The notes beneath the pieces were generated by a model. That model was not told where the DNA came from and did not search any database. It saw nothing but the letters and a program-made list of their open reading frames with translations. From NCBI RefSeq assembly GCF_000025545.1, contig NC_013930.1:124001-188000 (forward strand): a DNA stretch of 64,000 bases. The letters run 5' to 3'. Below are positions 16,501-42,938 of the stretch, piece by piece. The position numbers and the translations under genes were made by a program. The first letter of the stretch is position 1, and each line of letters starts with the position of its first letter. This DNA comes from Thioalkalivibrio sp. K90mix. Lineage in GTDB: Bacteria > Pseudomonadota > Gammaproteobacteria > Ectothiorhodospirales > Ectothiorhodospiraceae.

Positions 16501-16659
16501 ATGGGCAACGCTACACGTCATAAAGCAGGTCGTTCAAACAGAGAATGGGTGCTCGAGGCAACCATCGAAAAAGCCGACTGGATCCAGAAAGTTCAGTCGA
16601 AACATGGAGATAGGGCTTGCTGGAGCAAGGCGAAAGCAGATAGGGTGAAAACTCGTTAA
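16501..16659 (+). CDS. Possible small protein, 52 residues
   Basis: ATG to TAA encoding a basic, Trp-containing peptide (MGNATRHKAGRSNREWVLEA...ADWIQKVQSKHGDRACWSKAKADRVK). Texture is protein-like and it fills the gap before the GNAT-like gene, but there is no clear ribosome site. Function unknown. Confidence 0.35.
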   Translation: MGNATRHKAGRSNREWVLEATIEKADWIQKVQSKHGDRACWSKAKADRVKTR

Positions 16660-16672
16660 CACAAGGAGCGTG

Positions 16673-17326
16673 ATGAACATGGAAAGAAAACCCGTCCTGG
16701 CAACGAGCTATGAGCTGTCTGCATGGAACCCGATCCTGGAGAAGAGTGAAGGAGATAGGGCGGCCCCATACCTGCTCGAGCTGGCCGGGTGCCTAATGGA
16801 CCCCTTGGAGCAGAACCGAATCGTGGGGCGCCTCCACGCGCACATCCTGTGCGACTGGATAATCAATCTCGAGGGCATGCTGGAAGTTGAGCCGAGTTGG
16901 GGATACCTGCGGAAGATCATGGACGCTGACGCGGGGGGCGGCGTGTGCCCCGATGTGGCGGCATGTCTGTACGTCCCGCAAGAGAGGGTGGAGCGAGGAG
17001 ATCTAATGGTCGTCGAGCGTGTTGAAGTTCTGCCTGAGTACGAGGGGTGGGGTTTCGGCGGCGAGCTCATAGAAGATGCGTTCAGGACGGCCGCGCGCAA
17101 CGTCAGCCTGGCTGTGCTACGACCATTCCCCCTTCAGTTCGAGGGAGGAGAGCGGCATAGTCCAGCCCCGTCGCCCTGGGGGCCGGAATGGCATCAGGCC
17201 ATGTGCCTGAACCAGCGAGAATGCAGCAAGGAGGACGCGATGAAGCGCATCATCGCAAGCTACCGCCGGGCAGGCTTCGTCGATCTGTCGGATGAGCCGG
17301 ACCCCCTGATGGGAAAGCCCGCCTGA
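16673..17326 (+). CDS. GNAT-like N-acetyltransferase
   Basis: 217 residues. AAGGAG at 16663-16668 could serve GTG 16670, ATG 16673 or ATG 16679. The central part resembles the GNAT acetyl-CoA fold: the strand LMVVERVEVLPEYEGWGFGGELIEDAFRTAAR carries the pyrophosphate-loop-like segment GWGFGG. A late YRRAGFVDL matches the typical terminal YxxxGF. The first 70 residues do not match the core. The substrate is unknown. It lies upstream of the secreted nuclease gene with a 66-bp gap. Confidence 0.6.
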   Translation: MNMERKPVLATSYELSAWNPILEKSEGDRAAPYLLELAGCLMDPLEQNRIVGRLHAHILCDWIINLEGMLEVEPSWGYLRKIMDADAGGGVCPDVAACLYVPQERVERGDLMVVERVEVLPEYEGWGFGGELIEDAFRTAARNVSLAVLRPFPLQFEGGERHSPAPSPWGPEWHQAMCLNQRECSKEDAMKRIIASYRRAGFVDLSDEPDPLMGKPA

Positions 17327-24875: not shown

Positions 24876-26744
24876 ATGGACTGGTTCATCCTGTCACGTC
24901 TCGACCACGCAACTGGTCACTTTACACCTCACAAGATTCTTGCTTCCGGACCACATGAGGCGCGTGCTGCGCTGCTAAGAGAGGATCCTGAAACCACCAT
25001 TGGCGGTGTTGGTTGGATGGTGAATGGCGAGGTAAGGATCATTGAGGGCGAGATTCCCGATTCAGTTCGGGAGGCCGTAACGAGCTCGCTCCCGGTGGTG
25101 GCCGAGGAAGCCGAGCCGGAGAGGGTCGAACGAAACCGGATGCCGGCGGAACGATACGACGGGATGGAGACGCTATCGCAGGACCCGCTGGTGGTCTATC
25201 TCGATGAGTTTCTGGAGCCGGGGGAGTGTGAAGCGCTCATTCATCTGGCGCAGGGCCGCATGAAGCGTGCGCTGGTGTCGCTCGATGGGAGTAGCGGCGT
25301 GAGTCAGGGCCGGACGGGCTCCAACTGCTGGCTGCGCTATCAGGAAGAGCCGCTGGCGCGCCGCATCGGAGAGCGGGTCGCAAAACGGGTCGGATTCCCC
25401 TTGGAATACGCCGAGCCGCTTCAGGTTATTCACTACGGTCACGAGCAGGAATACCGACCTCATTACGATGCATACGATCTGGATACGCCGCGGGGACTGA
25501 GGTGTACACGGCAGGGCGGACAGCGAATGGTTACCGCATTGCTGTACCTCAATGAGGTCGAGGAAGGGGGTGCTACGGCATTTCCAAACGCCGGAGTCGA
25601 AGTCGCGCCCCGCAAGGGGAGGATCGCTATATTCAATAATGTCGGTGCTGACCCGGGTCGCCCACATCCACGCAGTTTGCATGGCGGCATGCCGGTGAAG
25701 AGCGGCGAAAAGTGGGCGGCCAGCATCTGGTTCCGCGCCCGCCCGGCGCACGAACGGCAACCCTGGTTCGATGACGTGGAGGACGCCAGCGCCCAGGTCC
25801 CCGAGGGCGAGGGTGGTCACTGGCCGGTAGTGGCGAGCAATCGGGCGCAAAGCATCCTTCAGCCTGCGCTGGAGAGGGCGGCGCCGATGCTGCCCCCGGA
25901 AGCTGGCGACGTAATGGTCGAATACTGTGTCGGCCCGGACAATCAGCGCGAGGAAAGTTCTGAAGCGGAGGCCTTCGGGCTTGTGGTGCGGGCGATGCCT
26001 TCGAGCATCACCAATGAAGCCGAGAACAAGAAGAACGTCGTGCGCAAAATGAAGGAGGCCGGGCACGCGGAGCGCATCCCGCTCTCTTGTGATTCGATCA
26101 GCGACGCGATGGGGCTTCCGGGGGCTCGCGACGCCGTGTGGTTTGTCCGTCCATCGTTTGGGAGTGCGGGACGGGGTACGCATTGCGTGCGGGGGGCGAG
26201 CCTGCGGGGGGCGAGCCTGCATCCCCAGCAGTTCTTGCAGCTGGCGGAGGAAAGTCTACTTCTCATCAGAGGGCGAAAGTTTCTCACGCGTGCATTCGTT
26301 CTGGTCTGGGGCGGGGCGGCCTACCTGTTTGATGAGGGGTATGTGCTGATGCATGGGGCTCAGTACCAGGTCGGGAGCACCAATGCGGCCACGCAGATGG
26401 ATCACCGCAATGCGCATGACCCGTCAGGTCCGCTGGTCCAGGAAGTGTTCCATGAGGTAGCGCAGCTGAAGGACTCTCACTGGGAGGATCTGTCGGCTGC
26501 GGTTACGGCCGTAGTGGAGGCATTCCCGGGGCTGGCCGAAAATTCATCGGCGACCACGTTTGCGGTGCTCGGGGTGGATGCGCTGTTCCGCGAGAATGGG
26601 CACGCGCTGATCCTCGATATCAGCACAATGCCGAATTTCGTGCAGCAGCCAGCAATCAACGACCGGGTCACGATCCCGTTGTGGGTATCGATTTTCGAGA
26701 TGCTGGCGGGCACGGGAAGCCAGCGATTTAAACGCATCACTTGA
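24876..26744 (+). CDS. Prolyl-4-hydroxylase (2OG-Fe) fused to TTL-like ATP-grasp ligase
   Basis: 622 residues; GGAAGGGGAAG precedes the ATG. Residues 1-90 are an undescribed N-terminal module. Residues about 105-290 form a prolyl 4-hydroxylase type 2-oxoglutarate/Fe(II) dioxygenase. Iron ligands H196 and D198 lie in RPHYDAYD and H269 in SLHGGMPV. The 2OG-binding K279 lies in SGEKWAASIWFRAR. Residues about 330-620 resemble tubulin-tyrosine-ligase ATP-grasp enzymes: FVRPSFGSAGRGTH (423-436, phosphate-binding loop), KFLTRAFVLVWGGAAYLFDEGYV, then FAVLGVDALFRENGHALILDIS with D581 at the metal site. P4H domains hydroxylate prolyl residues; TTL-like enzymes ligate amino acids to a terminal or side-chain carboxylate. 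The pair in one chain predicts sequential peptide or protein modification. The substrate is unknown. Confidence 0.8.
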   Translation: MDWFILSRLDHATGHFTPHKILASGPHEARAALLREDPETTIGGVGWMVNGEVRIIEGEIPDSVREAVTSSLPVVAEEAEPERVERNRMPAERYDGMETLSQDPLVVYLDEFLEPGECEALIHLAQGRMKRALVSLDGSSGVSQGRTGSNCWLRYQEEPLARRIGERVAKRVGFPLEYAEPLQVIHYGHEQEYRPHYDAYDLDTPRGLRCTRQGGQRMVTALLYLNEVEEGGATAFPNAGVEVAPRKGRIAIFNNVGADPGRPHPRSLHGGMPVKSGEKWAASIWFRARPAHERQPWFDDVEDASAQVPEGEGGHWPVVASNRAQSILQPALERAAPMLPPEAGDVMVEYCVGPDNQREESSEAEAFGLVVRAMPSSITNEAENKKNVVRKMKEAGHAERIPLSCDSISDAMGLPGARDAVWFVRPSFGSAGRGTHCVRGASLRGASLHPQQFLQLAEESLLLIRGRKFLTRAFVLVWGGAAYLFDEGYVLMHGAQYQVGSTNAATQMDHRNAHDPSGPLVQEVFHEVAQLKDSHWEDLSAAVTAVVEAFPGLAENSSATTFAVLGVDALFRENGHALILDISTMPNFVQQPAINDRVTIPLWVSIFEMLAGTGSQRFKRIT

Positions 26745-32496: not shown

Positions 32497-33714
32497 ATGT
32501 TCATCATGGAGAAAATTGGGGTACATCGAGCGTCACTGGAGGTGGCATGGCCGCCGGCCGTTCTGCTGGCCGCTGCGGCGTTCGGAGCGATCTCGCTGAA
32601 TACGACCGCGGGGGCCGTCCTTCTTCTCCTGGCGCAACCACTGTTGTGGGGCCTTGCGCCGAACCGGTGGCTGGGCGGTTTGGCCTCCGGGCTGTTTGTT
32701 GCGGGCGCTGCCTGGACTGTCGCACCTGCGGTGCCGGCCTACTTCGGTAATGACCAGTTGTTGTTCGGGGTGCTGTCCGTCGCGATCGTCGCCTTCATCC
32801 ATGCGCTGGTATGGGCTATTGCCTGGACGGACCGACCTCATCTGCGGGTGATCAATGCACTGCTCGTTATCGCACTGTTTATGCTGCCGCCCCTGGCTTG
32901 GATCGGTTGGGCCTCGCCTGTAAACGCCGCGGGGATTTTGTTTCCGGGTACCGGATGGTTCGGGTTTGTGCTACTGGCGGCGGTGTTGGCGTTGGGGCTG
33001 AGCGGACGCGCGGCCATGGTGGCGGGTCTGCTGACGATTTCGCTGGTGGCTCTGATGCCGCAGAGCACAGTCTGGATCGATTCCGATCCAGAATTCGACC
33101 AATGGCAGGGGGTAGATACGGCTTTAGGGGATCTCGAGCTGACGCATGGCCCGTCGGTGGTCGATCGTCAGGTAGTCCTGCAACAGAAGATCGAGGGTCG
33201 GTACCAGGGGCAATTCGTTCTGCTACCGGAAACAGTAGCAGGTGTATGGGAATTCGCGGAACCCATGTGGGAGCATTGGGATGGCGCCCCTCGAGGAGCT
33301 TTGATCGGGGCAGCATTGCAGGGGGATGCGCCGGGATACCACAACAGTCTGGTAGGGATCGGCGCGCTTCGGGGAATGCGGTACGACCAGCGCATGCCGA
33401 TTCCTTGGGCGATGTGGAATCCGCTTGATCCCGAGTCCGCGCATGCAGACATATTTGGCCCGGGCACTGTACAGGCTCCAACGGGCGAAGAGATAGGTGT
33501 ATTGCTTTGTTACGAGCAACTTATTGGGTTCCCGATGATTCAGACCTTCTGGGTCGGGCCCGACGTGGTGCTTGCGCCGACCAATGCATGGTGGGCGTAC
33601 AACAACGCAATTCCACGCATGCAGGAGTACATCGTAAGCGCGTGGGGCCGCCTCTTCGGCGTCCCGGTCGTGACATCGGTGAACTACAGCCACGATATCC
33701 CAGGACGGGATTAA
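32497..33714 (+). CDS. traB: TraB-like membrane protein with nitrilase fold
   Basis: 405 residues; AGGGAGG precedes the ATG. Six or so membrane helices occupy residues 20-195. The rest is a carbon-nitrogen hydrolase-like domain, giving the architecture of apolipoprotein N-acyltransferase and of Ti-plasmid TraB. The catalytic Glu is E245 in LLPETVAG and the Cys is C338 in VLLCYEQL. The expected Lys is not obvious: the region reads YDQRMPIPWAMWNP, so activity may differ from Lnt. TraB helps conjugal transfer in agrobacterial plasmids, perhaps by acylating or processing envelope components. 9 bp separate it from the next gene. Confidence 0.75.
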   Translation: MFIMEKIGVHRASLEVAWPPAVLLAAAAFGAISLNTTAGAVLLLLAQPLLWGLAPNRWLGGLASGLFVAGAAWTVAPAVPAYFGNDQLLFGVLSVAIVAFIHALVWAIAWTDRPHLRVINALLVIALFMLPPLAWIGWASPVNAAGILFPGTGWFGFVLLAAVLALGLSGRAAMVAGLLTISLVALMPQSTVWIDSDPEFDQWQGVDTALGDLELTHGPSVVDRQVVLQQKIEGRYQGQFVLLPETVAGVWEFAEPMWEHWDGAPRGALIGAALQGDAPGYHNSLVGIGALRGMRYDQRMPIPWAMWNPLDPESAHADIFGPGTVQAPTGEEIGVLLCYEQLIGFPMIQTFWVGPDVVLAPTNAWWAYNNAIPRMQEYIVSAWGRLFGVPVVTSVNYSHDIPGRD

Positions 33715-33723
33715 GGAGGACGT

Positions 33724-34266
33724 ATGGAATGCGCAAAGAACAAACGAGACGGCAATAACGCATCTCTGGACCGCGAGGGCCTGGGGCGCGCGGAATGGAT
33801 GCTGCTGGCAGCGGCTGCCAGCTCGAGCCTGGCGACCTGGTTGATGGGGTCGGTTTTGATGCTGTGCGTGACGGCGGTCGTGCTGTGGGTGTACTGGCTG
33901 GTCTCCTGGGAAGGGTATCGGCACGGGGTTCGTGTATCCCGAGATAAGCAGCTGCGTGAAGCATTCGAGCAGACGGCCGAGTCGGCAATCCAGCGTGCGC
34001 TGGTTGAGGAGGGCTTCCCGGAAGAGGATCTCGACCTACAGTTCGAAGTCGTGTCTCTGCTGTACCGGAAACGTGGTGAAGCCCTGGAGGCGCGCGCGCT
34101 TGTGCGCACCGCCGATGAGCGGTGGTTTCGCGCTGACATGGCGCTCTTGGCCGGTTCGGAGAGCGGTCAGGTGGAGCTCGTGCGCCTGGTGGAGAGCGAG
34201 GTGGATCTGGGCCGCTGGGGCGTGAAGAGCGCGAGCTACCGGGGATCCGAGGAGTGTGCTGAATGA
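33724..34266 (+). CDS. Membrane protein coupled to the histidine kinase
   Basis: 180 residues; TAAGGAGG precedes the ATG. Two adjacent membrane helices (about 24-60) then a 115-residue cytoplasmic domain with acidic helices (REAFEQTAESAIQRALVEEGFPEEDLDLQFEVVSLLYRKRGEALEAR). The stop overlaps the kinase start (ATGA). Its placement suggests an accessory sensor or kinase partner; no family recognised. Confidence 0.65.
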   Translation: MECAKNKRDGNNASLDREGLGRAEWMLLAAAASSSLATWLMGSVLMLCVTAVVLWVYWLVSWEGYRHGVRVSRDKQLREAFEQTAESAIQRALVEEGFPEEDLDLQFEVVSLLYRKRGEALEARALVRTADERWFRADMALLAGSESGQVELVRLVESEVDLGRWGVKSASYRGSEECAE

Positions 34267-36701
34267 GCTTGCTTCGCACCCGGTCGGGCCGCTCCATTCT
34301 AATGCGATATGGAGTGATGGCGGCTTTTCTGGCGAGCTTCTTGGGCATGCTCTTCCTGGTTCATCTGTACGTGCAGGACCGGGATCGAGAGTTGGCCCAG
34401 ACCGCCGCATCGACCGTGTCACAGGCGCTGGCGAACGCCGACCCTAATAGCTCAACTGAGATCCGGGAAGCGGTGGAAGAATGGATGCCTGAGAGGGCGG
34501 AGAATGTATTGGTCGAGACCCCCGCCCTCACATGGAGCAGCGAGAGTGGTGTTCATCGAACAGGCGATGTGATTCCGGATTCATCTGGCACGAGCGGCAT
34601 CGCGGCGGCGAGCACGATCCGTTATTACGGGCAGGACGGGGGAAAGGCTAGAGGTGAAGTCACCGTCGCCGTAAAGCCGCATGTTGCGAGCTGGACGATC
34701 ATCTGGGTGGGCTCAGTGCTGTTCGCGTTTGCTGCGGTTCTTGTGTTCATGCTCCACATGCATGTGACGTCCGAGCAGGGCTGGCTCGATACGCTGAAGA
34801 AACTTTCTGCCGCCGCGAGCGGGAAAAACGGACACGGGAGGATGGCAGGACCGGGCAACAACGTTCGGTCACGCTCGTCCCTCGATCGCGTCATCGGACA
34901 CTTGGAAGAAAAAATCGGGCATCTACAGAGACAGAGAGAAGAGGCTGTGGTCTCTCAGCGCTTCCTCGAGATGCAGGCGCATTGGCATGCCCAGATGACC
35001 CACGATGTCCGCTCGGCCGTAGGCAACATGAGCCTGTCGGCCCAACTTGCCCTGACCAAGATCCGTGATGGGGATATGGCTTCTGCCGCGGAAGCGATTG
35101 ACCGGGTTATTCGGCATGGGGAGAAGATCTCAGAGGACCTGAAGACTGAATTTGTCGTCAGCCGGCAGAATCAGCCCGAGGTCAGCCTGCACAACGTTGC
35201 CCGGATGATTGAAGATCAGGTGATGATGACGCGGGATGGACGCTCCGGGAACACCAAGCGGTTTTCGATTTGGATCAGTCCCGATATCCCCCAGTACGTG
35301 CTCACCAATGAAGCCATCGTTGCAAGCATGTTGAGGAACACGATCGAGAATGCCGAAAAAATGACACCAAAGGGGGGCGAGATTGAGATCCTGTTTCATC
35401 GGGAGGATGCGGCACGGGAATACGTGATCGATATTCGCGATAGCGGCCCGGGGGTTCCGGAAGCGCAACAGGAGTCCTTGTTCGAAGAGGGTGACTATAA
35501 GGTCAACGGGACGATCCGCAAGATTGGCCCGAGCGAAGGAATGGGGCGTGGACTTGCAATGGTTGCGGATCACATGGGGAAGATTCATGGCGAGCTCCGC
35601 CTGGTGTGTGATTCGCACCCACTGGGGGGTGCCTGGTTCCAAGCAGTGTGGCCCGCCATGGAGAGCCATAGTGTGGAGCATGGAACGCGGAAAACACTGG
35701 ATCAGTGCTGCAACGTCCAGGTAGATCTTGCCGATCCGGATGAGGCTCGAGCCGTGGCTGCCCACATCAATCGGTCGTCGAACTGCGTGGGGTTCGTTCA
35801 GAGGGGGGTTGCCGCCGGCGCCGACATTCTCGTTGTGGAGGGGTACAGGCGCCGTACAGCGGAGGCGATTCCAACGATCGTTCTGGAAGCGCCTTCGGAC
35901 CCCGTCACGGCCCACCTGGAGGGCTGGGTCACCATTTCCGAGGTGGAAATCCTAGCCTCGGAGGTTATAGGCGGTGAAGACACGATTGGCGAATGCGATA
36001 TGGGAGGCTCGGCAGAAACGTATCGGGGCGGCAGCTTGTTGCTAGTGGATGACTCGGAAGCAAATCTCGAGGCATTGAGCCAGCTACTTATCAGCCGGTT
36101 CCCTGAATTGAACGGAGCGATCATAGAGGCCAGCAGCGCCGAGGAAGCGATGCAGAAGATTCGGGTGGCGAAGGGGGTAATCGAGAGCGCAATCATCGAT
36201 TACCAGCTGCCCGGCCAAGATGGCGTTGATCTGTCCGAGCGGATCCGAAGTATGAGCGATTCCATCAAGATCGCATTGGTGAGCGGGAATCCGTCTTTGG
36301 TCCCGATGGAGCGCGTTGAACGTATCGGTGTTGAATCTGTGATGGGGCGCCCTCTGGATATGGAAACCCTGGAGCGATTCCTAATGGAAACGCTGGCGGT
36401 TGGGAGAGGCAACAGCCAAGAGGCGCCCGTTGAGGTCGAGATCAGCCAGGAAATGCGGGATGCCTGCATGGAGAAGGCGAATAGCTGGGCCCGGGAAGCA
36501 CGCACGAGGGCATCGCAGAAAGACTGGAAGGGAGTCGCGAGCGTGATGCACAAAGCAGCCGGGACCTGCCAAATGCTGGGGGTCGATGAAGTTGGCGCGG
36601 CGTTTTATAGGGTGGAGCGAAGCGCCCTTGACGGCGAAGAAAAGGAAATTCTGGCGAGCCTAGAGGAGGCAGAGCGTGAAGTACGACGTCAATATCATTG
36701 A
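34263..36701 (+). CDS. Unorthodox hybrid sensor histidine kinase (GacS/BarA-like layout)
   Basis: 812 residues. Two membrane helices (about 14-38 and 143-166) flank a periplasmic sensor of about 100 residues. The H-box MTHDVRSAVGNM holds phospho-acceptor H247. The HATPase follows with N-box NTIENAEKM, G1 DSGPGVP and G2 GMGRGLAM. Residues about 470-580 look like a degenerate receiver. A full receiver has D646 in IIDYQLPGQDG, and a C-terminal Hpt domain has H763 in VMHKAAGTCQMLG. This four-step phosphorelay order (HK-REC-Hpt) is that of GacS/BarA, BvgS and ArcB. The response-regulator gene overlaps its 3' end by 26 bp. The signal is unknown. Confidence 0.88.
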   Translation: MSLLRTRSGRSILMRYGVMAAFLASFLGMLFLVHLYVQDRDRELAQTAASTVSQALANADPNSSTEIREAVEEWMPERAENVLVETPALTWSSESGVHRTGDVIPDSSGTSGIAAASTIRYYGQDGGKARGEVTVAVKPHVASWTIIWVGSVLFAFAAVLVFMLHMHVTSEQGWLDTLKKLSAAASGKNGHGRMAGPGNNVRSRSSLDRVIGHLEEKIGHLQRQREEAVVSQRFLEMQAHWHAQMTHDVRSAVGNMSLSAQLALTKIRDGDMASAAEAIDRVIRHGEKISEDLKTEFVVSRQNQPEVSLHNVARMIEDQVMMTRDGRSGNTKRFSIWISPDIPQYVLTNEAIVASMLRNTIENAEKMTPKGGEIEILFHREDAAREYVIDIRDSGPGVPEAQQESLFEEGDYKVNGTIRKIGPSEGMGRGLAMVADHMGKIHGELRLVCDSHPLGGAWFQAVWPAMESHSVEHGTRKTLDQCCNVQVDLADPDEARAVAAHINRSSNCVGFVQRGVAAGADILVVEGYRRRTAEAIPTIVLEAPSDPVTAHLEGWVTISEVEILASEVIGGEDTIGECDMGGSAETYRGGSLLLVDDSEANLEALSQLLISRFPELNGAIIEASSAEEAMQKIRVAKGVIESAIIDYQLPGQDGVDLSERIRSMSDSIKIALVSGNPSLVPMERVERIGVESVMGRPLDMETLERFLMETLAVGRGNSQEAPVEVEISQEMRDACMEKANSWAREARTRASQKDWKGVASVMHKAAGTCQMLGVDEVGAAFYRVERSALDGEEKEILASLEEAEREVRRQYH

Positions 36702-37356
36702 GGATGAGGGTCTGTTTTCCTCGTTGTTGGTCGATGCCATTCAACGGGATGGGGAGAAATCGGGGGGCGCTGAGATTGGGGAGGTCCGAGAGTTTGAAAC
36801 GCCGGCGGACTACCTTCTGTGGCGCCAGGCCAATGACCCGCCGCGACCTCAAATCCTGTTTGTCGACTTGTATATCGACACGACGGATTGTGGTGCCGGT
36901 TTTGCGGCCGCCCGAAATCCGAAGATCAAGCGGCCAGGGGATGTGGTATGGGCGATGAGTCGACTCGACGAACTCGGGACGATACGTGGTCTTCTGGATG
37001 AAGGTGTGGATGGCTATATCCTAAAAAACCGCCGGGAATCACTAGAAGAAATCATACGCGCCCTGCGAGCGGCTTGCCGAAACGAACACTACTCCACCGA
37101 GATTATGGATCGCGCTCGAATGAGTGAGGTAGAGGATTCCGTACGACTGCTGACGGATCGCGAGAAAGAAGTCATCGGAAAGCTGCTCATTGGGGGTAAG
37201 ACGCCACAGGTGGTCGCTTGGGAGTGTGCTGTGGGCGAGAAATATGTCAGCAAGGTGCGCAAGTCGGTGAGGACAAAGCTGGGGGTTCGTGAGGACTGGG
37301 AGATCCGCGACGTGCTGATTCGGAGCGGCATGGGCGTCACGGAGTCAGCTGGATAA
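36676..37356 (+). CDS. NarL/FixJ-family response regulator (GacA/UvrY-like role)
   Basis: 226 residues from GTG with GAGGAGG upstream, inside the kinase 3' end. The receiver has acidic residues IIEDEG (9-11), the phospho-acceptor D64 in LFVDLYID and K117 in YILKNRR. The C-terminal LuxR-type helix-turn-helix reads LLTDREKEVIGKLLIGGKTPQVVAWECAVGEKYVSKVRKSVRTKLGV. It is the obvious partner of the kinase. Regulators of this family (GacA, UvrY) activate CsrB/RsmZ-type RNAs, and such an RNA appears to be encoded 75 bp downstream. Confidence 0.9.
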   Translation: MKYDVNIIEDEGLFSSLLVDAIQRDGEKSGGAEIGEVREFETPADYLLWRQANDPPRPQILFVDLYIDTTDCGAGFAAARNPKIKRPGDVVWAMSRLDELGTIRGLLDEGVDGYILKNRRESLEEIIRALRAACRNEHYSTEIMDRARMSEVEDSVRLLTDREKEVIGKLLIGGKTPQVVAWECAVGEKYVSKVRKSVRTKLGVREDWEIRDVLIRSGMGVTESAG

Positions 37357-37360
37357 ACGT

Positions 37361-37430
37361 GGGTGAGGGGGTAGACTTTTCACCCAGCAACCCCCCTTCC
37401 ACGATCCGGGATCGATGGGCAGAATACAAA
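37361..37430 (+). promoter_or_regulatory. Candidate promoter and regulator site for the GGA-loop RNA
   Basis: An inverted repeat GGGTGA (37361-37366) / TCACCC (37380-37385) with 13-bp spacing sits about 45-70 bp before the first GGA hairpin. A -10-like AGAATACAAAT lies at 37421-37431. The layout suits activation by the adjacent response regulator, but it is not the classical TGTAAG-N6-CTTACA GacA box. Confidence 0.45.
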
Positions 37431-37789
37431 TCGTCCAAGGACGGAAGCGAAGCGCAAGGATGGCGCAGAAGCAAGGAAGAAAAAGCCCTCAAGGATTGAG
37501 GGCAGGCAGGGAAGCCAAACGCCCAAGGATGGGCGGATAGCGAACCAAAGGATTGGTCGCTTCAAGGATGATCCCCATTTGTGGGGAGCCCCGGAAAGGA
37601 GTTCAAGGATTGAGAGGGGCAAGGCTTACGAGGCGCAAAAGTAAGCTGAAAGAGGGTGTCAGGGAAGACCATTACAGAGCGCTGCAAGGTGGCAGCGCTG
37701 GCAGGGACGCCGCCCGAAGGAGTCGGGGATGGGGCTTATGGATAAGCCCGAAGGAAAGGCCAGCTCAACCGTGAGCTGGCCTTTTTTTT
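37430..37789 (+). ncRNA. CsrB/RsmZ-like CsrA-sequestering small RNA (predicted)
   Basis: About 360 nt without coding potential, made of successive hairpins that display GGA. Perfect stems are at 37452-37466 (loop AAGGATG), 37485-37503 (7 bp, AGGAT), 37520-37535 (6 bp, AGGA), 37544-37557 (5 bp, AGGA), 37713-37727 (5 bp, AGGAG) and 37732-37749 (7 bp, TGGA). Shorter ones are at 37432-37443, 37562-37571 and 37603-37613. An 8-bp stem at 37678-37699 shows AAGGTG. Single-stranded AAGGA occurs between them (for example 37472, 37596, 37751). It ends in a strong terminator. Size, repeated GGA loops and place beside a GacS/GacA-type pair match CsrB, CsrC, RsmX/Y/Z. These RNAs titrate CsrA/RsmA. No csrA gene is seen in the window, so the target would be host-encoded or elsewhere on the plasmid. 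Confidence 0.8.
37755..37789 (+). terminator. Intrinsic terminator of the GGA-loop RNA
   Basis: AAAGGCCAGCTCA / TGAGCTGGCCTTT 13-bp stem with ACCG loop, overlapping eight T. Orientation defines the RNA strand as plus. Confidence 0.95.
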
Positions 37790-37871
37790 GGCCGAGAAGA
37801 AATAGACGGAACGACTCCATTCGGTAGGGTATATACCAGACCCGTACAAATAGACGAATCAGGAGACCGCA

Positions 37872-38177
37872 ATGAAATGGATGTGTCAGTGGGCGTTGGC
37901 GGGGGCGTGCGCAACCGCTCTGAGTGCCTGTGCTGCACAGAAGTCGGGCGAAGCCGCGGGGTATCAGTACAACGATGCCGGCACGGTCCAGGCCGCGTAC
38001 GTCTTCGCCGGATGGGATGATCGGAACTGCGCACAGTATCGCCTGGAGCCGCGCCAGGAAGACGTGATGGTGCCGACGGTGATGTACGTCTGGGATGGTG
38101 CGGCATTCACGCAGGATCAAGATGCCTGCAAGCATGGCGAGAAGGCACACGAAAGCGACCATGACGAAGACCGGTAG
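37872..38177 (+). CDS. Small lipoprotein
   Basis: 101 residues; CAGGAG precedes the ATG. Signal peptide with lipobox ALSAC, predicted acylated Cys at about residue 20. The mature part is short with two Cys and an acidic His-rich end (KHGEKAHESDHDEDR) that could bind metal. Head of the RecJ-relaxase unit. No family recognised. Confidence 0.65.
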   Translation: MKWMCQWALAGACATALSACAAQKSGEAAGYQYNDAGTVQAAYVFAGWDDRNCAQYRLEPRQEDVMVPTVMYVWDGAAFTQDQDACKHGEKAHESDHDEDR

Positions 38178-39996
38178 TGGCGCAGTTGCGATGAAGCGCT
38201 GGCAAGAGATCGAAGGTCATCCGGACTCGGTGGCGCGCGCGGTCGAGGCGGGGCTGACGCCGTTTCAGGCGGAGATCGTGGCAAAACGAATGCCCGAGGC
38301 CGACACGGATACGATCCGTAAGGGATTCGTCGATGTGCGGCTGGCGAATCTGGATAGCCCGGATACCCTCCCCGGCATCGAGGCGGCCACGGAACGACTG
38401 GTGAGCGCAGTCCTTCTGGAGCAGGTCATCGCGATCGAGACGGATCACGATGTCGATGGGGTCACCAGCCACGCCATCCTGTATCGCACGCTGGTCCATG
38501 TGATGGGGCATGCGCCCGAAAAGGTGCAGTCCTACATCGGGCACCGACTAAAGGAAGGGTATGGCCTCTCGGATGCCGTTGTGGACCGCATCTTGGCGGC
38601 TGACGAAAAACCGCAGCTGGTGGTGACGGCCGATAACGGTACCGCGGACGAAGACCGCATCGCCCGCCTCGCCGGCGAGGGGGTGGATACGATCGTGACG
38701 GACCACCATGCCGTACCGGAAGCCGGGCCGCCGCGCTCGGCCGTGGCCTGTGTCAGCCCCGCGCGTGACGACAGTGCATACCCCGACACCACGATCGCCG
38801 GCTGCATGGTGGCGTGGCTCTTGGCAATGCGGGTCTATCGCCAGTGGTGCGAGGTGCAGGGCCTGGATGACCCAGGCCCCGGGCGCGCGGCCCTGATCGA
38901 TATGCTCCCCGAGGTGGCCCTGGGGACGATCGCGGATTGTGTGTCGCTGGGAGAGAGTGTCAACAACCGTACGATCGTGAGGAAGGGTCTGGATCGCATC
39001 AACGCCGACGATCCTCGCCCGTGCTGGCGGGTGGCAAAACGCCACACCTGCCAGCACGGGGCGCCCTTCACGGAGGAGCGTCTCGCCTTTGACGTAGGCC
39101 CCCGAATCAATGCGCGCGGGCGACTGGACGAGGCGATGGCCGGCGTAAAGTTTCTGCTGTCTAAGGACGAGGGCGAGGCCGAGCAGTGGTGGTCGGTCCT
39201 GGATGCGGAGAATACCCAGCGCCGAGCGGTCGAGAAGGCGATGAAGGATGTCGCCATCGGGAAGGCTGAAGCGCAGGTGAGTAAGGGTGTATCTGGCATC
39301 ATGGTCTGGATGGAAAACGGGCACTCCGGGGTCCATGGAATCGTGGCCTCGCGGGTACTGGAGCGTTATGGCCGACCAACGCTTTGTGTGTCGCCCGTGC
39401 ATGAGTCGGGAGACCGGGTCACCGGCTCGGCACGGGGTGTCGAGGGTGTTCATGTCGAGCGTGCGCTGCGCCAGGTGAAGGCCGATCTCGGAAACCGGGT
39501 AATGAAATTTGGCGGCCATGCCGGCGCGGGCGGAATCACCCTTGAACGCAGCGCCCTGGACGCACTCGAGGAATCCTGGAACGCGGCGTGCAATGAGCAG
39601 GCGCAGGCGCACGGGTTGGTGCTCGAGCCCCTGTTGCAGGTCGAGGCCTGGCCGGAGGGCGGATTTGATGACCGGCGGGTGCGGGAGCTTGAGGCCCTGG
39701 CGCCTTTTGGTGAGCGCTTCCGCCGTCCGGTATATGCCTTGAAGGCGTTGATCCAGACGGTCAAGGCCATGGGGCAGGAGAAAACACACCTGCGCCTAGC
39801 TCTCAAGACAGACGGCGGAACCTATGGAGCGGTCTACTTCAATGCGGCAGAGCCGGGTGGCGAGACGCAATGGAGATCCGGCCAATCCGTTTGGGTGGCG
39901 GCCAGCGTCGGCCTGAATCATTACATGGGGCATTGCCGATTACAGCTGGTCGTTCGGGAGATGCGCCCTGCCAATCAGGAACAGGCTGCGGTATAG
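38161..39996 (+). CDS. recJ: RecJ-like single-strand exonuclease
   Basis: 611 residues if started at ATG 38161 (overlapping the lipoprotein end); ATG 38191 is an alternative, and neither has a strong ribosome site. DHH phosphoesterase motifs: IETDHDVDGVTSHAIL (canonical DYDADG altered to DHDVDG but with both aspartates), VVTADNGT, VTDHHAVP. The DHHA1 motif KFGGHAGAGGI follows, then a C-terminal OB-like domain with LAPFGERFRRPVY. RecJ degrades ssDNA 5' to 3' in recombination and repair. Placement ahead of a RecG-like helicase and the relaxase suggests processing of transferred or broken plasmid DNA. Confidence 0.85.
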   Translation: MTKTGSGAVAMKRWQEIEGHPDSVARAVEAGLTPFQAEIVAKRMPEADTDTIRKGFVDVRLANLDSPDTLPGIEAATERLVSAVLLEQVIAIETDHDVDGVTSHAILYRTLVHVMGHAPEKVQSYIGHRLKEGYGLSDAVVDRILAADEKPQLVVTADNGTADEDRIARLAGEGVDTIVTDHHAVPEAGPPRSAVACVSPARDDSAYPDTTIAGCMVAWLLAMRVYRQWCEVQGLDDPGPGRAALIDMLPEVALGTIADCVSLGESVNNRTIVRKGLDRINADDPRPCWRVAKRHTCQHGAPFTEERLAFDVGPRINARGRLDEAMAGVKFLLSKDEGEAEQWWSVLDAENTQRRAVEKAMKDVAIGKAEAQVSKGVSGIMVWMENGHSGVHGIVASRVLERYGRPTLCVSPVHESGDRVTGSARGVEGVHVERALRQVKADLGNRVMKFGGHAGAGGITLERSALDALEESWNAACNEQAQAHGLVLEPLLQVEAWPEGGFDDRRVRELEALAPFGERFRRPVYALKALIQTVKAMGQEKTHLRLALKTDGGTYGAVYFNAAEPGGETQWRSGQSVWVAASVGLNHYMGHCRLQLVVREMRPANQEQAAV

Positions 39997-40038
39997 TGCC
40001 CACTGGCACGGATGCCGCCCCGCAGCGAGGGAACGCAA

Positions 40039-40980
40039 ATGGAACAAGACCAGACCCCTGATCGCAAAGGCTCGAACGCGAAGCCGTCAGACGACCCGGA
40101 AGCGCTGGACGATGCCGTCGAGAGCGACACCGGTGAGGACGCCCAGAACGAGCGACCACGAAGCCGACGCAAGCGGGCGCGCGACTATGTCGACGCCGCC
40201 GAAGGCACGTTGATCCCCAACCAGATCTCGCCCGGGAAAATGATTCTGGTGGGGATTGTATTTGCGCTGCTGTACCTCCTGAGCTCCGACTTTATGACCC
40301 CGTACATAACTGGGGAGCGTTCCTATGAGCAGATCGTGTCCTCGGGGACCGTTGAGGAGGGCGACATGGTGTATCGCCGCGCGGTGGAGCGTGAGTTCGA
40401 AGACTGGACACGCATCCGCTATGAAGCGTCAGCGTCCGCCTCGGAGCACCGCGGGCGCATCACGATGCTGGTGGATCCGGTATGCCCGTACTGCCGCCGC
40501 GCGTTCGACCAAACGCAGGAGATGGTCGAGGCCGGGATTTCGGTGGACTACGTCGTGGTCCCGACGCGCTTGTCGAGCGAACTCAGTATGGAGTCGGCCG
40601 AGAGCGTTTATTGCGCCGCCATCGATGAGCGCCGGGATGCGTTCGAATCGGAAATGAATGAAGAGCCGTATCTGGCCCGAGAGTGCGAGATTGCGAACAT
40701 CCTCGAGGTGCAGATGGAGCGCGCGCGTGAGCTGGGAGCGAATGGCACCCGACCCTGGACGGTGCTCGAAGATGGACGGGTTGTAGTGGGGCACCGCCCA
40801 ATGGACGAATGGCGAACGATCCTGGATGCCGAGCCGTCGCCGGGGGCAGAGTTGAGCGCCCGGCCTGAACGGCAACCGCAAGAACCGACCCCCGAGCTTG
40901 AAAGCGACGAAGCGGAAGAAAGCGTCGAGCCGTTGATGGGTGAAGGAGAGTTGGCTGAGGACGCACTGGAGGATGAATGA
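40039..40980 (+). CDS. Membrane-anchored DsbC-like thioredoxin-fold protein
   Basis: 313 residues from ATG 40039 after AGGGAA. A charged cytoplasmic N-terminus of about 70 residues precedes one membrane helix (MILVGIVFALLYLLSSDF). The periplasmic domain has CPYC at residues 149-152 and a cis-Pro-like segment GTRPWTVL, and the tail is acidic. Unlike the protein at 1860 it is anchored rather than exported. DsbC-like genes sit in the tra regions of SXT and IncA/C elements, where they support pilus or envelope protein folding. The stop overlaps the RecG-like start (ATGA). Confidence 0.82.
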   Translation: MEQDQTPDRKGSNAKPSDDPEALDDAVESDTGEDAQNERPRSRRKRARDYVDAAEGTLIPNQISPGKMILVGIVFALLYLLSSDFMTPYITGERSYEQIVSSGTVEEGDMVYRRAVEREFEDWTRIRYEASASASEHRGRITMLVDPVCPYCRRAFDQTQEMVEAGISVDYVVVPTRLSSELSMESAESVYCAAIDERRDAFESEMNEEPYLARECEIANILEVQMERARELGANGTRPWTVLEDGRVVVGHRPMDEWRTILDAEPSPGAELSARPERQPQEPTPELESDEAEESVEPLMGEGELAEDALEDE

Positions 40981-42938
40981 CGAATGCCTCCATCAGTGAA
41001 GAATTCGAGCTCGGGAGGCTCTCCACGATGGGCCTCAAGGAGTGGTGGCACGTTTCCCTCCTGCTGCCCGAAGCATGGGAGGACTACCGCAGTACACTCC
41101 GGTACGCCTATGAGCTTTCTGCGCTGGAAGATGGTTCGGATGTAGTGGTCCAGGGGGTCGTCGGCCAGGAGCCTTCCGTTTCGTTCTCGGGCGGCCGACC
41201 GCGGACTCAGGTGCAGATCCGCCTATCGGACGACACGCCGATCGCATTTTCCCTGTTCGGCGACACCCGCGGGATCAGCGATACCATCGCCACCGGCAGT
41301 ACGGTGTTGTGTCGCGGACGACTAGCGCGTATGGACACGCGAATGTTCATCAACAACGCCGCGCTGGTTGAGCCGCGCTGGGCGGGAAAGATTCGCCCAG
41401 TGTATCCGGCCCCGAGAGGTGTAATGAAGGCAAGCACGGTGCGAGAACGGGTCAGCGAAGTGATCGAGGCGGCAATCCCAGAGGGGGCCGCGTGGGTGAC
41501 CCAGGAGGTCCAGCGGGCGGCCGGTTCCATAGGGATCGAGGTAAAGACCAGCGAAACGGATGTACGGGAGTGGCTTCAAAAAGCACATGCCCCGGATACG
41601 CCGGAAGACGGTATGCGTGCAAGCCGCAAGCTCGAGGAGTTGGCGGCGCTGGCGGCGCTGGCAAAGGCCTACAGCGCCAAACAGTGTGGGTCGCGGGCGC
41701 ATGCGCTGGATCTCAGAGGCTGGAGGAGTCGAGCGGGGGATGTTCCGTTCACGATGACCGAGGAGCAGGAAGCAGCCGTCGAAGCGATCACCCAGCAAAT
41801 GAATACGATGGAGCCCCAACGTCACCTCTTGAGCGGGGATGTGGGGACCGGCAAGACCGTCGTGTTCGGGCTTGTGGCCGCCGCGACCTACGATGCCGGG
41901 TATTCGGCCGCGGTTATGCTGCCGAATGAGCCGCTGGCCCAGCAGGTCGCACGGGAGTTGGGGGAAATGTGGCCGGACATCTCGTTCGTGACGGTGGCTG
42001 GCGATTCAGTCCCGCACCCGCAGGCCGGGGTCGATGACCCGGTCATCTTTGTTGGCACGACGGCCTTGCTCTCGCGGATCAACGAAGACGCCCGGCCGCG
42101 GATAGGTCTGGTCGTAGTCGATGAGCAGCAGAAATACAGCGTCGCGCAGCGTGAGCAGCTCGCGCAGGACGGGGCGCACCTCCTGGAGGCCACCGCGACC
42201 TGCATCCCGAGGACGATGGCTCTCATCCGCTATGGGGCCATGCAGCTATCACAGCTGCGCACGCCCCATACGCCGAAAGAGATCACGACGCAGGTGGTGC
42301 CGGGTGCGGAATCCAAGCGTGTGTTCAGCCAGATCCAGAAGACCCTCGAGAAAGGGCATCAGGTCCTGGTGGTGTACCCACTGAAGGAAGGTGACCCGAA
42401 CGACCGGATGGCGCTGAGCAACGCCATTGAGTTTTGGAAGAAACGTTACGGAGATCGTGTCGCGGCGATCTCGGGAAGCATGGAGGACACCGAGAAGGAG
42501 CAGGCGTTGGCCCGCCTTCGATCGGGGGCGGCGGACATCCTGATTGGGACCACGGTCGTTGAGGTGGGATTAAATGCACCAGGGCTGCGGCACATCGTTA
42601 TTGCCGATGCATCCCGGTACGGACTGATGCAGCTGCACCAGTTGCGCGGCCGGGTTGCCCGCCAGGGCGGGAAAGGGCTTTGCAGCCTGATCGTCCCAGA
42701 TAACGCGAAGGAACGTACGCTGGAGCGCTTCCGCGTACTGGAATCCACACAAGACGGGTTCGAAGTTGCCGAACATGACATGCGGCTACGCGGCTTCGGC
42801 GATCTCGGAGCGGATGGCGGCACGCAGCACGGGGGCGATGAGACCTTCCTGTTCGGGAAGAAGATCGACGTGGAGGTCGCCGACAAGGTGGCAGGCGCGA
42901 TCCGCAGCCGCATCGAGGAACGATACGCCGGCGGGTGA
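40977..42938 (+). CDS. RecG-like helicase
   Basis: 653 residues. The N-terminal third has an OB-like wedge region (VVVQGVVGQEPSVSFSGGRPRTQVQIRL). Helicase motifs: Walker A SGDVGTGKT, motif II VVVDEQQKYSVAQREQL (RecG has DEQH; here DEQQ), then LVVYPLKEGD, GTTVVEVGLNAPGLRHIVI and HQLRGRVARQGGKGLC. The TRG-like region near the end reads AEHDMRLRGFGDL. RecG remodels forks and D-loops. It is co-translated with the DsbC-like gene and precedes the relaxase, giving a conjugation-linked DNA-processing set. Shorter N-terminal wedge than chromosomal RecG. Confidence 0.85.
   Translation: MTNASISEEFELGRLSTMGLKEWWHVSLLLPEAWEDYRSTLRYAYELSALEDGSDVVVQGVVGQEPSVSFSGGRPRTQVQIRLSDDTPIAFSLFGDTRGISDTIATGSTVLCRGRLARMDTRMFINNAALVEPRWAGKIRPVYPAPRGVMKASTVRERVSEVIEAAIPEGAAWVTQEVQRAAGSIGIEVKTSETDVREWLQKAHAPDTPEDGMRASRKLEELAALAALAKAYSAKQCGSRAHALDLRGWRSRAGDVPFTMTEEQEAAVEAITQQMNTMEPQRHLLSGDVGTGKTVVFGLVAAATYDAGYSAAVMLPNEPLAQQVARELGEMWPDISFVTVAGDSVPHPQAGVDDPVIFVGTTALLSRINEDARPRIGLVVVDEQQKYSVAQREQLAQDGAHLLEATATCIPRTMALIRYGAMQLSQLRTPHTPKEITTQVVPGAESKRVFSQIQKTLEKGHQVLVVYPLKEGDPNDRMALSNAIEFWKKRYGDRVAAISGSMEDTEKEQALARLRSGAADILIGTTVVEVGLNAPGLRHIVIADASRYGLMQLHQLRGRVARQGGKGLCSLIVPDNAKERTLERFRVLESTQDGFEVAEHDMRLRGFGDLGADGGTQHGGDETFLFGKKIDVEVADKVAGAIRSRIEERYAGG

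Follow-up and report, generated by a model that had tools for sequence, protein, structure and literature searches.

The 64,000-nucleotide stretch analyzed here (the window) belongs to the plasmid of Thioalkalivibrio sp. K90mix (C2:124001-188000; the prefix C2: marks plasmid numbering, and bare positions are window numbering), and it carries in a row the genes for a tripartite sensor kinase and a NarL/FixJ-type response regulator, followed by a candidate CsrB-like noncoding RNA. Based on sequence comparison, we consider it probable, if far from assured, that this trio is a plasmid-borne Gac/Csr-like switch, i.e., that the kinase and regulator turn on an RNA that titrates CsrA. In this model, the kinase would sense an envelope signal, and phosphate would pass from H247 through D646 and H763 to D64 of the regulator. 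The phosphorylated regulator would activate the downstream RNA gene, and the RNA, with about 10 GGA hairpin loops, would titrate CsrA dimers, namely, the plasmid's own and probably the host's too. Titration would free the mRNAs held by CsrA; we can only guess at these targets, with conjugation or pilus genes as the most natural candidates.

The predicted sponge nature of the RNA (~360 nucleotides [nt], 37430-37789, plus strand, with ends taken from a first-pass annotation of the window) is well supported and is the best-supported part of the module. Compared with 300 dinucleotide shuffles, the stretch is rich in GGA (20 versus a shuffle mean of 14.1; 6/300 shuffles reach 20), more so in ANGGA (16 versus 4.4; 0/300) and CARGGA (10 versus 0.9; 0/300), and 11 GGA fall in predicted hairpin loops (versus 2.3; 0/300). 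CAAGGAU recurs many times, and loops such as GCCCUCAAGGAUUGAGGGC, CGCCCAAGGAUGGGCG, and GCGAACCAAAGGAUUGGUCGC are dense. The fold of 37425-37795 has a minimum free energy of -156.8, whereas 100 shuffles average -121.4 (z, -7.87). As a positive control, Escherichia coli CsrB gives 9 loops, 22 GGA, and 7 ANGGA with the same script. When both strands of the plasmid were scanned for GGA loops (4000 scan windows of 371 bases, step 120), the three top scan windows, with 9, 8, and 8 loops, all lay on this RNA. All three forward frames of 37430-37789 contain stops (2, 5, and 1), and a 73-amino-acid (aa) TTG-started frame overlaps it. Judged by sequence and fold, the RNA ends in a terminator-like stem, GGCCAGCTCA-accg-TGAGCTGGCC, followed by T8 (37758-37789, plus strand), which is absent from the list of a consensus terminator scan. 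Thus, the layout of CsrB/RsmB (many GGA/ANGGA in hairpin loops, a terminator-like end, and an apparent lack of coding) is found here, and the terminator-ended, noncoding GGA-hairpin RNA claimed in the first-pass annotation holds up as a sequence prediction.

The kinase (812 aa, 34263-36701, plus strand) combines a transmembrane sensor, H-box, ATPase domain, receiver, and Hpt in one chain, the layout of GacS/BarA; by eye, two hydrophobic stretches flank an extracytoplasmic part. H247, D646, and H763, like D64 of the regulator, stand where they had been placed, and both open reading frames (ORFs) are as annotated. The HisKA-HATPase-REC-Hpt order proposed earlier is borne out by Pfam for HATPase_c (1.6e-12) and REC (4.7e-11) but not for its outer parts: the Pfam search gives no HisKA or HAMP match to the kinase, whose H-box (THDVRSAVG) is recognized by eye, and the Hpt falls under the cut-off. 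The tripartite kinases TorS, BarA, ArcB, and LetS are among its best models, and the best NCBIfam names are TorS (67.9 bits), BarA (60.6), and ArcB (55.5), all far under their cut-offs, which gives no family assignment. In the 47 genomes of the host's order, the closest other kinase match reaches 2.4e-15 over residues 198-463, and at least 4 other genomes match at E<=1e-12 (21 candidates being scored in many genomes). Among plasmids, 175 records match, all at <60% identity and none covering >80% of the query. An AlphaFold model of the kinase made without an alignment had a mean pLDDT of 45.6 and was not used.

The regulator (226 aa, GTG start, 36676-37356, plus strand) has a predicted receiver and LuxR-type helix-turn-helix, and its ORF overlaps that of the kinase by 26 bases. 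Full-length NarL-type models match it (MctR, 2.7e-10), in keeping with its earlier description as an overlapping NarL/FixJ-type regulator; both of its Pfam domains are under their cut-offs. Its best matches in the order are of the GacA/UvrY type. At E<=1e-6, it matches 17/46 other genomes of the order, and in 16 of these 17 the matched place is also where the UvrY/GacA model scores best in that genome; in the exception (G040), the regulator matches are the second-best UvrY-model place and a place absent from that list. In E. coli, uvrY adjoins uvrC. One relative (L018, in G038) has a uvrC-like gene (GIY-YIG plus UVR motifs) a short distance downstream, separated from it by a single other frame. 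We built a tree with 39 of 41 relatives from the order and the K90mix chromosome, leaving out L125 (OmpR-type) and L124 (no match to the reference). A supported clade of 10 rows was named GacA after the tree had been viewed, from the uvrC-linked row; the seven best regulator matches among the 39 relatives all fall in this clade, and its rows make up 10 of the 13 best. The regulator is too divergent for tree placement. We conclude that it resembles GacA, in that the ranking favors GacA rows, and is at most a putative orthologue.

CsrA, on whose presence in the host the first-pass proposal depended, is encoded twice. One csrA follows an aspartokinase-type gene on the chromosome, and the second lies on the plasmid (C2:200117-200275, minus strand; E, 2.3e-13), about 38 kb from the trio. 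The plasmid CsrA scores 51.3 bits with Pfam PF02599 (cut-off, 27) and 49 bits with the NCBIfam equivalog, under the cut-off of 73, and it matches 11 PLSDB records. The RNA-binding residues of CsrA are L4 and R44 in E. coli numbering; the plasmid protein retains the Leu of LILxRR and the Arg of a VxR stretch aligned with VHREE of the chromosomal CsrA. Given this plasmid csrA and the finding of no GacA-type regulator elsewhere in the genome, the case for a plasmid cascade is stronger. At C2:200075-200380, minus strand (L010:12075-12380), the plasmid csrA frame shows an N-terminal extension, with genes for an EAL protein and for secretin/OmpA proteins nearby, and the gene next to it on the same strand has CAAGGATG at the ribosome-binding position.

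The plasmid scan also yielded a second GGA-loop stretch, outside the window (C2:56540-57045, minus strand; L005 ~16540-17045), with 8 loops in one scan window; all other places off the two stretches have at most 5. It holds 14 GGA in 186 nt, 6 of them in loops (0/200 shuffles each), numbers that are not independent evidence because the stretch was chosen as a scan maximum. It ends in a stem plus T6, and a 154-aa frame overlaps it. Rfam gives no match to it up to an E-value of 5. We regard it as a candidate only, for a weaker CsrB-like RNA. Imperfect repeats (TTCAARAARTCGAC) lie upstream of it.

Several observations weigh against a Gac/Csr-like switch. In the kinase, the Hpt reaches only 0.021 in Pfam, the receiver has RP in place of the usual KP (by eye), and the GacS/BarA cut-off (NCBIfam NF008318, 890 bits) is missed at 60.6 bits, with TorS scoring higher. 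In the regulator, GerE (3e-4) and REC (0.011) are each under the Pfam cut-off, and the top NCBIfam match is MctR (40 bits), with UvrY at 18.2 bits; this misses the UvrY/GacA cut-off of NF007018 (280 bits), which is also passed by 0/47 genomes of the order. The tree leaves the regulator unplaced, outside the 10-row GacA clade and on a branch of length 10. The genome, plasmid, and viral-contig searches gave no kinase or regulator relative near enough for a linkage or covariation test: for the regulator, PLSDB and the viral contigs gave no match, the genome-contig scan gave no confirmed match, and the other 368 gammaproteobacterial genomes sampled gave none at E<=1e-13. No relative of the trio was found. 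Folding of the second GGA-loop stretch is unremarkable (-58.6 versus -53.5, standard deviation [SD] 3.6; over 506 nt, -216 versus -202, SD 7.1). No sigma-70-type promoter consensus occurs in 37200-37900. CARGGA is not enriched at ribosome-binding positions (73/325, versus 41/158 for AARGGA, 41/273 for GARGGA, and 10/52 for TARGGA), and therefore no CsrA regulon is evident on the plasmid. As to the compact, self-contained cascade of the first-pass annotation, the three parts do stand in a row, but csrA lies some 38 kb away, and the family cut-offs for GacA, GacS/BarA, and CsrB are all missed.

The weakest link is the putative control of the RNA by the adjoining kinase and regulator, for which the basis is adjacency and similarity only. 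It is here that the strongest rival, unlikely but a serious contender, applies: the RNA would be a CsrA sponge, either constitutive or under another factor, and the adjoining pair would control something else (e.g., tra genes). The pair does follow close behind traB, as if in one operon. The GacA box (consensus TGTAAG-N6-CTTACA, as given in the portion of PMC4682653 consulted) has no exact match on the plasmid, in an exact-match search that degenerate sites fall outside, and the regions 5' of the two plasmid RNA candidates have no common word of at least 9 bases. On the other hand, the regulator's best matches in the order are GacA-type, and the RNA lies directly 3' of the regulator gene, with about 80 bases between them that contain two inverted repeats. 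The first, TGGGTGA-N13-TCACCCA (37360-37386), may be an operator or a transcript-end hairpin, and its core, GGGTGA-N13-TCACCC, is unique to this place on the plasmid. The second, the palindrome CGATCC-G-GGATCG (37402-37414), lies just 5' of the RNA and is a candidate regulator site; CGATC-N3-GATCG recurs at two further plasmid places.

Could the GGA-rich stretch be another structured RNA (e.g., an antisense RNA or a leader) rather than a CsrA sponge? We think this quite improbable. The covariance-model search suggested in the first-pass annotation, made in 601 bases, did return CsrB (RF00018) with the lowest E-value (5e-4, over 37377-37630), but its 21.7 bits are far from the gathering score of 71. 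PrrB/RsmZ (21.3 bits; E, 0.009; 37659-37789) is likewise below gathering, and sbrA outranks CsrB on bits alone (23.6 bits; E, 0.017), on the terminator part; these scores also count against our reading. At gathering, Rfam gives no match in the whole window or in 140,000 further plasmid bases. There is no homologue for covariation, and many candidate ribosome-binding sites of the plasmid read CAAGGA, so that the motif resembles a Shine-Dalgarno word. Against this rival stand the 11 loop GGA versus 2.3 in shuffles, where E. coli CsrB shows 9 by the same count, and the csrA on the same plasmid. Least credible, and very improbable in our view, is a decaying import, in which a Gac/Csr cascade of chromosomal origin would have drifted while on the plasmid and lost its function. 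The very long regulator branch, the weak domain scores, and the KP-to-RP change might hint at this, but the RNA hairpins, the two reading frames, and the residues of the phosphorelay are all undamaged.

With the UvrY model, 29/47 genomes of the order have a match at E<=1e-30, but 12/30 genus genomes do; the host belongs to the 18 that lack one, its best match being 61.6 bits over model positions 2-105 only. CsrA is found in 16 of these 18 genus genomes; the other two are draft assemblies, 80 and 96% complete. Among the 12 genomes of the genus that do match the UvrY model, rows were taken from 10 (not G017 and G021), and all of these fall outside the supported GacA clade. It thus seems common in the genus for CsrA to occur with no standard GacA. 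Given this pattern and the lack of any GacA-type regulator among the matches on the host chromosome, the host cell may have no Gac-like input other than the plasmid pair. A larger proposal is that a conjugative plasmid brings a full Gac-Csr circuit of its own (kinase, regulator, two sponge RNAs, and CsrA) into a host lineage with CsrA but no Gac branch, such that the plasmid alone decides CsrA release; we consider this tentative idea possible but doubtful.

A pattern of three CARGGA occurs at 7 places in the genome, 6 on the plasmid RNA and 1 chromosomal; it is not specific, with matches in 24/30 genus genomes, and one match common to four genus-mates is in a coding start in all three read. 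Three CAGGA occur at 58 places (55 chromosomal), whereas the reversed control gives 13; no place has more than 2 overlapping matches, and therefore no dense chromosomal sponge array is seen, in a search that short RsmY-type RNAs would escape. In a search for sponge RNAs around csrA in the order, the count of GGA loops reached a maximum of 6 in 20 stretches from 14 genomes, a subset of the csrA matches (19 around such matches plus one neighboring; 12,308 scan windows, of which the 999 with at least 12 GGA were folded). Two genus-mates (G005 and G001; L166:6541-6969 and L178:9983-10353) have a GGA-rich leader before a divergent csrA-like gene, with 21 GGA in 371 nt, perhaps reflecting autoregulation.

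The known system nearest to this one is the GacS/GacA (BarA/UvrY)-CsrB/RsmZ-CsrA/RsmA cascade of gammaproteobacteria, with which the K90mix set shares the kinase architecture, the NarL-type regulator, the GGA-hairpin RNA with a terminator-like end, and the presence of CsrA. It differs in that its genes are plasmid-borne and in a row, that kinase, regulator, and RNA are under the family cut-offs with no exact GacA box, and that 18/30 genus genomes, including the host, have no UvrY-model match at E<=1e-30. Alleles of csrA occur on Legionella integrative and conjugative elements. They have also been counted on 161 of 20,668 PLSDB plasmids (PMC7366521); csrA on mobile DNA is thus shared, whereas the consulted part of that paper mentions no plasmid sponge RNA or Gac-like pair. 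According to the part of PMC9928087 consulted, plasmid CsrA homologues can rewire host behavior, and RsmQ of plasmid pQBR103, a CsrA/RsmA homologue acting on host regulation, binds host RsmY/RsmZ probes; in that case the host supplies both the RNAs and the two-component system, whereas the K90mix plasmid carries the kinase, regulator, and RNA too. MtvT/MtvA of pPAD8 is, in the excerpt consulted, a plasmid factor acting on the Rsm pathway via rsmY/rsmZ and on plasmid transfer, and it acts on host RNA genes without a sponge RNA of its own (PMC11826091). The literature titles and abstract openings surveyed name no plasmid-borne sponge RNA with a dedicated two-component pair. Together with the plasmid csrA, the module hints that the plasmid has a switch of its own over CsrA, a host-wide regulator. 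A working module would mean that plasmids can control what feeds into the Csr pathway rather than just supply one of its output proteins, and a host in which no Gac regulator was found would then be a clean test bed for the role of the cascade.

The genome comprises a chromosome (C1) of 2,744,800 bp and the plasmid (C2) of 240,256 bp (sum, 2,985,056 bp), and PMC3368412 likewise gives K90mix a single 240-kb plasmid. In the main text of that paper, GacA, CsrA, and two-component are each mentioned 0 times. The plasmid encodes ParA-/ParB-type proteins and a RepA-type initiator, a MobH relaxase (317 bits; cut-off, 200), an SXT-type TraD (620 bits; cut-off, 366), proteins with VirB4/6/8/9/10-type Pfam domains, a pilus secretin, and PilO-type proteins. 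Judged by this gene content, it is a conjugative plasmid. The trio sits between traB and the MobH relaxase/type IV secretion system genes, which are found beyond the RNA, as had been claimed. The TraB-like protein (32497-33714) has an NCBIfam subfamily match of 1.4e-51, below the cut-off. Between it and the kinase lies a gene for a 180-aa protein (33724-34266, plus strand), membrane-type by eye and of unassigned function, with no Pfam match over the cut-off and two weak PHROG matches of unknown function. The traB-like, 180-aa, kinase, and regulator genes are consecutive, and no gap or overlap between neighbors exceeds 26 bases; the 180-aa gene and the kinase start overlap by 4 bases and are therefore probably cotranscribed.

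The contig ends of the plasmid (C2:1-2093 and C2:236911-240256) repeat exactly in pieces of 1450 and 646 bases, and the end copy holds about 1250 extra bases. These terminal repeats suggest a circular molecule; in the part of PMC3368412 consulted, the plasmid is described as linear. Elsewhere in the window, RecJ-, DsbC-, and RecG-like genes (38095-42938) lie between the RNA and the relaxase gene, placing repair-type enzymes in the transfer region. A single ORF at 24876-26744 fuses a 2OG-Fe(II) oxygenase domain with a TTL-type ligase domain, and at 120-1796 is a DNA gyrase A-like protein whose listed ORF covers the later half of the topoisomerase domain and the C-terminal propeller.

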